In this document: positions 52,744-56,377 of the stretch, one piece after another
Numbering within the stretch: position 1 is the stretch's first letter
How the letters are laid out: every line of letters starts with the position of its first letter
Translations under genes and position numbers: made by a program
Notes under the pieces: generated by a model
The model's database searches: none
What the model was told of the DNA's origin: nothing
What the model saw: the letters and a program-made list of their open reading frames with translations, nothing else
Source: Pseudomonadota bacterium
Lineage (GTDB): Bacteria; Pseudomonadota; Gammaproteobacteria; JAKAQQ01
Length of the DNA: 64,000 nt
Reading direction: 5' to 3'
Assembly (NCBI GenBank): GCA_027365475.1
Contig: DAHXNI010000022.1
Coordinates: 24,264 to 88,263, forward strand

Positions 52744-53864
52744 GCGCAGGCCCTCGGAGAGGCGAACCGGAACTGCTCGGGCAGGCGATTCGCAACCGAC
52801 CCTGCCAGTTGGCCACAGGCCGCCTGGATCGATTGCCCACGGGGTTTACGAATGAGCGTCCGGAGACCCTGACCGATCAGAATCTTCTGAAACGCCAGAA
52901 TTCTGGATTCCGGCGAAGTCGCGAAGGCCGTTCCCGGGAACGGATTGAACGGGATGAGATTCACCTTGGCCGGAATCGCCCTCAGCAGGCGCGCCAGCGC
53001 ACGTGCATCGGCCAGCTGGTCATTCACTCCATCAAGCATGACATACTCGATCAGGATCTCGCGCTCCGGGTGCCGCGCGACGTACCGACGGCAGGCAGCC
53101 AACAGCTCAGCAAGGGGATGGGCGCGGTTGATCGGCACGAGCCGATCACGCAGGGCATCATCGGCCGCGTGCAGCGAAACCGCAAGCGCCACATCATGCT
53201 CGGTGGAAAGCCGGTCGATCAGGGGCACAAGCCCCGCCGTGCTCACTGTCACACGCCATTTGGAAAATCCGTAGGCGAGATCGTCGAGGAGCAGGCGCAA
53301 GACCGGCGAGAGCGCGTGGTAGTTGGCCAGTGGCTCGCCCATGCCCATGAACACCACGTTTTGAATCGGACGGTCCGACTTGGAACCATCCGGATCATGC
53401 CAGATTCGCCAAAGCTGCCCCACAATCTCGGCGCTTGTGAGATTCCGGCTGAACCCCTGGGCCCCGGTCGCACAGAAGGCGCAGTTGAGGACGCATCCCG
53501 CCTGGGACGAGACACAGAGCGTCCTACGGTCCTCATCCGGAATGATGACGGTTTCGACGGCATTGCACGCATCGACCTGAAACAGCCACTTCTCGGTTCC
53601 GTCGGCATCCACAGCCCGCCCGACTGCTGGCGGACAGACACAGTCGGCTGCCTCAAGAAGCATCGCCCGGAGACCGAGCGCGAGATCGGTCATGCGGTCG
53701 AAATCCGCGATCCCGCGCCGATGGATCCAGCCTAAGATCTGCCGGGCGTGGAAGGCTCTCGCACCTCGCGCCCCAACCCAGTTCTCAAGCGCTGCCCGGT
53801 CGAATCCGAGAAGGTTCGCGCGTCCGGCCGGGTCGGACTCAGCGTGGAGTTCGAGTGAAGACAT
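52740..53864 (-). CDS. rlmN: 23S rRNA/tRNA adenine C2-methyltransferase RlmN
   Basis: [11 protein letters not shown] radical-SAM motif; [14 protein letters not shown]; start reassigned to [10 protein letters not shown]. Confidence 0.95.
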
Positions 53865-54273
53865 CGATCTCGCCAAAAAAGAAGGCGATCTCGCGCAGCG
53901 CGTTCGCCGGGCTGTCCGATCCGTGGACCAGGTTGCGTTCAATGCTTTCACCCCATTCGCGCCGAAGGGTTCCGGGCGCGGCCCGGGCTGGATCGGTTGC
54001 GCCCATGAGATCGCGGTTTTTCTGAACCGCATCCTCGCCTTCGAGCACCTGGGCCATGACCGGACCAGACGACATGTACTCCACGAGTGACGGGAAGAAG
54101 GGCCGTTCCCGGTGCACCGCATAAAAGGACTCGGCTTCCGAACGGCTGAGCTGAAGCATCCGGGCCGCAGCGATCCGGAGCCCCGCCCGTTCGAACCGCT
54201 CATACACGGATCCGATTCGGTCGCGCGCAACGCCATCCGGTTTGATGATCGACAAGGTCCGTTCAAGACTCAT
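53839..54273 (-). CDS. ndk: nucleoside diphosphate kinase
   Basis: [15 protein letters not shown]; lacks nothing obvious at the active-site region. Confidence 0.93.
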
Positions 54274-54405: not shown

Positions 54406-54741
54406 TCACAGCGCGAAACTTTCGCCGCAGCCGCAGACCTCCCGCGCATTCGGATTGCGGAAACGGAACATCCGATTGAGACCGTCCCGGACATAGTCGA
54501 CCTCGATTCCAGCGAGCATCGGGAGATCAGCTTCGGACACGACCAGTGGCACACCCGCACAGTCGATCAACCGTTCACCGCTCGCCACTTCTTGGGCATA
54601 GTCGATCCGGATGCTGTGCCCCGCACAACCGCTAGGCTCAACCGATATCTTGAGACCCACCGCTTCCGCGTGCGTCCCGAGCAGACGCTTCGCCTGTTCC
54701 ACCGCGTCCGGGGTCCATGTCATTGCGTTCATCATTTTCAA
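54406..54741 (-). CDS. HesB/IscA-family iron-sulfur assembly protein
   Basis: SGCAGHSIRIDYA and C-terminal CGCGESF. Confidence 0.88.
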   Translation of the reverse strand: MKMMNAMTWTPDAVEQAKRLLGTHAEAVGLKISVEPSGCAGHSIRIDYAQEVASGERLIDCAGVPLVVSEADLPMLAGIEVDYVRDGLNRMFRFRNPNAREVCGCGESFAL

Positions 54742-55181
54742 CTCCCGCCACGCTCCCTGCGCCCGCTCCGGTCTTCATTGCCGAGCGCATGGATGATGGC
54801 ATCTTCAACCAGCAGTGCCTCATCATAACGGACCCGCGGGTATCCCAAAAATCCCGCCACCGCACAACCCGGCGGGACGATGTCCGACCGGGCGGACCGG
54901 CCCTCGAGCCACTCGGCATAGTATGCACAAGCTGCCCCGGTCCATGGGCCGCCACGATACCGGTAACGTGCCCGCGCGATCAGCCCATCCCGGATCTCAA
55001 GCAGAAATTCGATCTCGCTGCCCTGTTCGGGGCTGCCCGCCGTACCCTCACGGACATTCGGCAATCCCGGTTCGAATCCGCCCGCACGGCGCAAATCGCG
55101 AGCCCAGCGTTCGAATCTGGAGCGTGGCGATTCCCCCTCTTCCGGCAACAGGGGAACCGGATCCCCATCTCCCGGCTTCAC
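54738..55181 (-). CDS. divergent IscU/NifU-N-like protein lacking canonical cysteines
   Basis: Hand alignment to IscU (AEWLEG~TEWVKG; LLVEDAI~ILAEDAI); sits directly after iscS. Confidence 0.6.
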   Translation of the reverse strand: MKPGDGDPVPLLPEEGESPRSRFERWARDLRRAGGFEPGLPNVREGTAGSPEQGSEIEFLLEIRDGLIARARYRYRGGPWTGAACAYYAEWLEGRSARSDIVPPGCAVAGFLGYPRVRYDEALLVEDAIIHALGNEDRSGRRERGGS

Positions 55182-56377
55182 ACCGTTCGGGAGCCCATCC
55201 GGCCCCCTTTCCGGGGTGCCACTTCGAGCATCTGGCCGTAGGCCTCTGCAATGGCCTGGGCCGCACTTTCGATTTCATCCTCGGTCGTGAACCGCCCGAG
55301 GCTGATCCGCAAGGTCGCCTCCGCTTCAGCATCGGATCGCCCGAGCGCCTTGAGGACGTGGGAAGGTTCTCCCCGTGCACTCGCACAGGCCGATCCCTGA
55401 GCCAGGGCCAGATCACCGAGAAAGAAAAGCAGGCTCTCTCCCCCGACACCGGTAAACGTGAGGCTGAGTAATCCACAGACGCGTGGGACTGACGCACCAT
55501 TGAGTTCGACACCCGAAAGCGTACGGAGGCGAGCCCAGAGCCCGTCTCGCATCCCTTGGATGCGGCAGGCATCAGTAGCACCCTCAAGACGGGCGATCCG
55601 GAAAGCCTCGCCCAAGCCCACGATTTGATGGGTCGCAAGAGTTCCAGCGCGCAGTCCCCGTTCCTGCCCACCTCCGTGGATGATCGGCTCGAGGACAAGC
55701 TCGGGATCATTCCGCAGATAGAGCGCACCAATCCCCTTGGGGCCGTATATTTTGTGCCCTGAGAACGACATGAGATCGACCGGGAGAGCAGCCAAGTCGA
55801 TCGGCAGTTTGCCCGCACTCTGAACCGCATCGACGTGAAACACGATGCCCCGCTCTCGGCAGATAGACCCGATGGAAGCGACGTCCTGAATGACGCCGGT
55901 TTCATTATTGACATGCATGACCGAGCAAAGCAGGGTATCGGACCGTAGTGCCCGTCGGATTTCCTCCGGGTCCACGCATCCGTTACGATCGCAGGGCACA
56001 TAGGTCACTTCGAAGCCATCCGCCTCGAGCGAGCGAAGCGTGTCGAGCACGGAGGAGTGCTCGATCTGCGACGAGACGAGATGACGACCGCGTTCCCGGC
56101 GGGCCCGAGCCAGGCCGCTCAGGGCAAGATTGTTCGATTCAGTCGCCCCGGAGGTAAAAATGACCTCGCGATCCCGTGCACCGATCAGTGCGGCAACTTC
56201 ATGGCGGGCCGCTTCGACCGCTTCCCGGGCGGCGCGTCCGAGGGCATGGGTCGCCGATCCGGGGTTGGCGAAAACGGATCCCGGACCGAGGTATTCGAGC
56301 ATGCGAACGATGACCCGCGGATCGGCTGGTGTCGAGGCCGCATAGTCCAAGTAAATGGGCCGGGTGCGCTTGCTCAC
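55178..56377 (-). CDS. iscS: cysteine desulfurase (IscS/NifS family)
   Basis: YLDYAASTPADPRV, SFSGHKIYGPKGIGALY, ALAQGSACAS active-site Cys loop. Confidence 0.92.
   Translation of the reverse strand: MSKRTRPIYLDYAASTPADPRVIVRMLEYLGPGSVFANPGSATHALGRAAREAVEAARHEVAALIGARDREVIFTSGATESNNLALSGLARARRERGRHLVSSQIEHSSVLDTLRSLEADGFEVTYVPCDRNGCVDPEEIRRALRSDTLLCSVMHVNNETGVIQDVASIGSICRERGIVFHVDAVQSAGKLPIDLAALPVDLMSFSGHKIYGPKGIGALYLRNDPELVLEPIIHGGGQERGLRAGTLATHQIVGLGEAFRIARLEGATDACRIQGMRDGLWARLRTLSGVELNGASVPRVCGLLSLTFTGVGGESLLFFLGDLALAQGSACASARGEPSHVLKALGRSDAEAEATLRISLGRFTTEDEIESAAQAIAEAYGQMLEVAPRKGGRMGSRTV

Follow-up and report, generated by a model that had tools for sequence, protein, structure and literature searches.

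An IscU orthologue without cluster ligands, encoded beside a tail-less IscS, recurs in Gammaproteobacteria

The cysteines C37, C63 and C106 of IscU are its Fe-S ligands and are textbook invariants. HscA is the chaperone that unloads IscU. The protein analyzed here, designated IscU*, resembles IscU/ISCU (TIGR01999, PF01592) in its fold, its iscS-iscU-iscA gene order, its ndk-rlmN locus, its Gly/Ala/Leu core and its basic residue at K103. It differs in having neither the cluster-site residues nor the HscA motif, and its genome lacks HscA, frataxin and the clasping tail of IscS. SufU (TIGR01994) has the same superfamily fold and is also a desulfurase partner, but it differs in retaining a Cys/Asp metal site and in carrying about 20 inserted residues. 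Neither feature was found in IscU*, and a separate canonical SufU (L001) is present in the genome. The ISD11/frataxin-type regulators of NFS1/IscS might be similar in the way they work, as small desulfurase-binding tuners without catalytic cysteines. However, their folds are unrelated to that of IscU* and there is no evidence of common descent. TusA is an alternative acceptor of IscS sulfur, and in E. coli the two acceptors IscU and TusA compete for IscS, altering the use of its sulfur (PMC11302665). TusA differs from IscU* in its unrelated fold and in needing its own cysteine, and it is absent from the genome studied here. It is already known that ISC and SUF exclude each other in Gammaproteobacteria (PMC10631705), and the fold and the locus are known as well.

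We analyzed a stretch of 64,000 nucleotides (the window) from contig DAHXNI010000022.1 of a Pseudomonadota bacterium (GCA_027365475.1). The relevant features are as follows.

53839-54273, minus strand: ndk, with rlmN farther downstream; the conserved flank of gammaproteobacterial isc loci
54406-54741, minus strand: iscA-like gene for an A-type carrier, its three cysteines (SGCAG, VCGCGESF) intact
54738-55181, minus strand: iscU*, IscU homologue of 147 aa with a GTG start, all five cluster-site residues replaced
54819-54824, minus strand: codons of Asp120-Glu121, at the His105-Cys106 positions (alignments)
54828-54830, minus strand: codon of Arg118, at the position of E. coli Lys103, an IscS contact (alignments)
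54948-54950, minus strand: codon of Gly78, at the ligand Cys63 position (HMMER alignment)
55017-55019, minus strand: codon of Ser55, at the Asp39 position of E. coli IscU (HMMER alignment)
55023-55025, minus strand: codon of Gln53, at the ligand Cys37 position of E. coli IscU (HMMER alignment)
55178-55213, minus strand: C-terminus of IscS (RKGGRMGSRTV), where canonical IscS has the IscU-wrapping tail LWEMYxxGIDLxxVxWxxH
55178-56377, minus strand: iscS, cysteine desulfurase of 399 aa, with the catalytic Cys loop GSACASA and the PLP lysine motif SGHKIYG

The open reading frame of iscU* lay between iscS and the iscA-like gene, as the sequence-only reading had described. The genes iscS, iscU* and the iscA-like gene form an overlapping or abutting row followed by ndk and rlmN, and the stop of iscS shares 4 bases with the start of iscU*. 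This is the ancestral arrangement iscS-iscU-iscA...ndk-rlmN. Because iscU* is the only IscU-type gene in the genome and occupies the ancestral isc locus, it is the orthologue of IscU by descent in degenerate form. The earlier suggestion of a paralogue was thus abandoned. A second copy beside a canonical IscU was rejected as well, as the genome search gave only SufU and no canonical IscU.

The homology of the protein to IscU is well above chance. It matched TIGR01999 with E = 5e-6 in hmmscan, although the 26.6 bits were far below the equivalog cut-off of 192.4, and E. coli IscU structures in the PDB were matched at E = 5e-7 by phmmer. No Pfam family, PF01592 included, matched it in hmmscan. The proposed check against PF01592 thus gave no match, and the loss of the ligands was confirmed in the TIGR01999 and PDB alignments. 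The profile and PDB alignments agreed with the earlier hand alignment in placing Gln53 at C37, Gly78 at C63 and Glu121 at C106, so that no canonical cysteine was recovered at a ligand position. In the same alignments, Ser55 and Asp120 took the places of D39 and H105, the accessory ligands. The only cysteines of IscU* are residues 85 and 106, neither of which is at a ligand position, again as first read. The HscA-recognition motif LPPVK has become YPRVR. Sequencing error, frameshift and misalignment were ruled out by concordant relatives and by the profile, PDB and structure comparisons.

An AlphaFold model of IscU* alone, built with an alignment of 45 relatives, had a mean pLDDT of 89.2 and exceeded 94 through most of the core. 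Its best Foldseek matches in the PDB were ISCU chains of human NFS1-ISCU complexes (E = 1.4e-9; TM-score by target length 0.82-0.85), and E. coli IscU from 3LVL was also among the best. The structure prediction proposed earlier thus gave a confident model, and the predicted fold is that of IscU/NifU-N.

Within the GTDB family to which this genome belongs, iscU* was present in six further genomes (G001, G002, G003, G006, G007 and G008), always beside iscS, and the alignment showed no ligand cysteine at C37, C63 or C106 in any of them. Two further genomes of the family had no iscU* in their assemblies: the contig of G005 ends inside iscS, and neither iscU* nor IscS was found in the assembly of G004. 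The motifs RYR[YF]xGxPWxxAACA[FY]YA and RYDExLxVEDA are sharply conserved in the family. The dN/dS of iscU* was 0.27-0.35 in four within-genus pairs (core, 0.23-0.29), with bootstrap upper 95% bounds of 0.36-0.58. By the same method, iscS gave about 0.1-0.2 and iscA 0.15-0.27, so iscU* evolved faster than both. The frame was open in all seven family members; in neutral simulations with substitutions only, it survived in 38 of 1000 runs at 0.35 changes per site and in 14 of 1000 at 0.7. We conclude that iscU* is under purifying selection. A pseudogene is unsupported given the dN/dS below 1 and the open frames, and IscU* is not obviously one.

The neighboring desulfurase has changed too. The tail motif LSPLWEMYxxG[IV]DLxx[IV]xWxxH was found in 27 of 27 IscS proteins beside an intact IscU and in 0 of 39 beside a ligand-lost one. 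The proximal SPLW part was kept in 12 of these 39, and the IscS of the window has neither the tail nor SPLW. Position Trp45 of IscS, a TusA contact, was W in 28 of 28 intact cases and in 10 of 39 ligand-lost cases; it is Arg in the window. Judged from these motifs, the IscS tail and the IscU loop that it touches vanished together. The tail loss and the change at Trp45 imply that IscS has been remodelled at both sites where its acceptors dock. In E. coli, IscS without residues 376-404 does not bind IscU (PMC2854127), and the matching segment is truncated in the window.

We searched 387 Gammaproteobacteria genomes with profiles and read the loci, adding the family of the window. A ligand-lost IscU-type gene was present in 42 genomes from 30 GTDB families. 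C37 was lost in every case, and among the 39 aligned ligand-lost proteins C63 was retained in 12, C106 in 11, D39 in 10 and H105 in 16. In place of the ligand cysteines, the C37 and C63 positions carried Gln, Gly, Ser, Ala, His or Arg, with variation even within the family of the window. Some new residues were common, namely Pro64 (25/39), Cys70 (19/39) and Ala107 (30/39). The cysteine at E. coli position 70, which corresponds to Cys85 of the window protein, occurred in no canonical protein. Beyond Gammaproteobacteria, we searched 299 genomes of the phylum, and each of the 28 highest-ranking additional matches was canonical.

The usual locus of the ligand-lost genes was trmJ-iscS-iscU*-(iscA)-ndk-rlmN. 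The genes hscB, hscA and fdx were missing beside every one of these loci; by contrast, most intact-IscU loci keep hscA and/or fdx. In most of the ligand-lost loci iscU* directly adjoins iscS, and this adjacency also holds in some twelve loci that have no iscA next to them and in every locus lacking hscBA/fdx. Mapped onto a tree of the linked IscS proteins, C63 required at least eight changes and C106 at least seven. On a neighbor-gene tree of RlmN, TrmJ, SuhB, Ndk and SecF, which are unrelated to cluster assembly, the intact/lost label needed four changes, two of them forced by well-supported branches, this being a quick tree with gappy rows. The label changes imply that the ligand-lost state probably arose more than once, as read from these sequences; a few ancient events may also lie behind it. 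In the IscU tree, the ligand-lost proteins had very long branches.

Several variants of the locus were seen. More eroded IscU-like open reading frames, near the limit of profile detection, lay directly behind iscS in L146, L152 and L155 (genomes G116, G060 and G036), and more such genes are probably unannotated. Several iscS loci were without any iscU (L141-L145, L147-L149, L151). Several SUF genomes retain iscS without iscU*; therefore, iscU* is not indispensable everywhere. In G021 (L111:3915-5621, minus strand), the one genome covered from its family, IscS and a ligand-less IscU-like domain were in one open frame of 569 aa. It is possible from the sequence that this is a natural fusion; the linker contains in-frame ATG and GTG codons, and separate translation is also possible. 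In G028 (L105:4009-7144, minus strand), the pair of ligand-less iscU* and iscS has a canonical sufU, accompanied by sufS, as a neighbor at about 2 kb.

The genome studied has SufS, SufB/SufD, a SufT-like protein and a SufU with intact LCGD, GSGC and VKC motifs, with their genes placed as follows.

L001:566-3158, contig C21, minus strand: sufS-sufU-sufT-like, then a Rieske-type ferredoxin gene; SufB and SufD matches upstream

Judged by gene content, this SUF is of the SufU-containing type and the set is complete-looking. The search of the genome for another scaffold, which had been proposed on the basis of the sequence alone, thus turned up a canonical SufU with SUF and no canonical IscU. HscA over the cut-off was absent genome-wide, as was frataxin. 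MnmA was present and TusA absent, so IscS retains a non-cluster client. TusA (PF01206) was missing in the whole family (G000, G001, G002, G003, G006, G007 and G008), and MnmA was present in all four family genomes checked (G000, G003, G006 and G008). Therefore, sulfur transfer for 2-thiouridine probably runs without TusA in this family, as far as gene content indicates.

We compared the 42 ligand-lost genomes with 38 intact-IscU genomes. SufB was found in 40/42 versus 7/38 (Fisher P = 4e-13), HscA over the cut-off in 0/42 versus 31/38 (P = 9e-16), frataxin in 0/42 versus 10/38 (P = 3e-4) and TusA over the cut-off in 18/42 versus 34/38 (P = 1e-5), the P values being from related genomes in sets chosen by IscU state, with draws that were not independent, and the absence calls resting partly on draft MAGs. 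The two SufB-less ligand-lost genomes were MAGs of 65% and 77% completeness. Among the seven intact genomes without HscA over the cut-off, four carried a fragmentary or divergent HscA copy next to IscU. As TusA is present in those 18 ligand-lost genomes, there is no one-to-one exchange, and IscU* was rejected as a replacement for TusA.

Two IscS contacts of E. coli IscU, K103 and Y3 (PMC2854127), could be followed. Charge reversal at Lys103 abolishes binding in E. coli (PMC2854127), and 29 of 39 ligand-lost proteins have a basic residue (Arg or Lys) at this position. An aromatic residue was found at Y3 in 68% of 40 proteins. The whole set of IscS contacts was kept at 0.55, versus 0.48 for other canonical-invariant positions, which is weakly supportive. 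Partial correlations of evolutionary rate between IscU* and IscS were 0.31-0.36 (12-13 loci), and those for RlmN, TrmJ and IscA were similar or higher. From the contact residues, binding of IscU* to IscS is plausible.

Cluster assembly on IscU* seems very unlikely from its sequence and surroundings because the ligands, the IscS clasp and the unloading chaperone are all missing. The claim that the protein is no standard scaffold therefore stood: IscU* has no ligands left, HscA is missing from the whole genome, IscS is without its tail, and SUF is present with an intact SufU. Of the roles guessed earlier, a desulfurase partner appears to be the best. We propose, and give about an even chance, that IscU* is a non-catalytic IscS-associated subunit shaping how sulfur is delivered to tRNA thiolation and to other uses outside clusters. 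The clusters of the lineage would be made by SUF, which would have freed IscU* from cluster building. It would then have shed its ligands and its HscA-recognition motif, and IscS its clasping part, with the IscU fold and the tight iscS linkage retained. IscU* would still bind IscS, as a small subunit on the acceptor side, and it might tune how active the desulfurase is or which acceptor receives the sulfur (MnmA in tRNA 2-thiouridine synthesis, or other non-cluster uses). The competition of IscU and TusA in E. coli favors such a subunit. So do the purifying selection, the linkage to iscS with its 4-base overlap, the single frame in G021, the retention of K103 and Y3 and the presence of MnmA as a client. 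Against it stand the weak conservation of the contact set, the truncated IscS segment, the weak and unspecific rate correlation, the faster evolution of iscU* than of iscS or iscA, and its absence from several SUF genomes.

The main alternative, possible if rather less probable than its opposite, is that IscU* is a slowly decaying relic, which became purposeless after the SUF takeover and erodes stepwise, losing the ligands, then the HscA motif and then the gene. It would persist for now because some constraint is left, for example through operon coupling or a minor function. The graded ligand loss across lineages, the long IscU-tree branches, the dN/dS above those of iscS and iscA, the further eroded copies, the iscS loci without iscU and the accompanying loss of the IscS tail all fit this explanation. 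However, a dN/dS clearly below 1, with upper bounds of no more than 0.58, does not, nor do the open frames in seven of seven family members and the high-confidence predicted fold; the common new residues and the sharp family motif are also unlike free drift. We consider it most improbable that iron or a labile cluster is bound through Asp120/Glu121 together with further side chains, which would make the protein another kind of scaffold. The Glu is invariant in seven of seven family members and the preceding Asp occurs in five, but the two remaining ligand positions are variable among the family members themselves, E121 is unconserved outside the family and HscA is absent. Equally slight is the chance of a sulfur-relay adaptor, a role that had been suggested, with the persulfide carried on Cys85. 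The frequency of Cys at position 70 in ligand-lost proteins and the lack of TusA in the family speak for it. Nevertheless, two family members, G003 and G007, have Ala in place of Cys85 and are likewise without TusA, so that no cysteine is common to all seven, and Cys85 sits within the helix after the former C63 loop. The metal site and the relay are thus both unlikely because the residues concerned are not common even within the family.

PF01592 caught 38 of 45 aligned rows and the IscU models 40 of 45, intact rows included, so ligand-lost proteins may be mis-annotated as scaffolds. When a 'NifU-like' protein is annotated next to IscS, a working ISC system should not be assumed before its ligand cysteines and the tail of IscS have been examined. 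Searches of the open-access literature turned up no description of a ligand-less IscU that is conserved, recurs and sits beside a tail-less IscS.

The recurrent loss beside IscS in SUF users suggests that the old IscU was retained to do something else next to IscS. It may be, though we would lean slightly against it, that when SUF replaced ISC several lineages independently made IscU a cysteine-free IscS subunit for non-cluster sulfur, and that IscS dropped its tail. The ligand-lost orthologues of IscU are natural separation-of-function variants. They show what IscU, or its gene, is kept for once cluster building has been removed, and they bear on the question of a second role for IscU on IscS, be it structural or regulatory.
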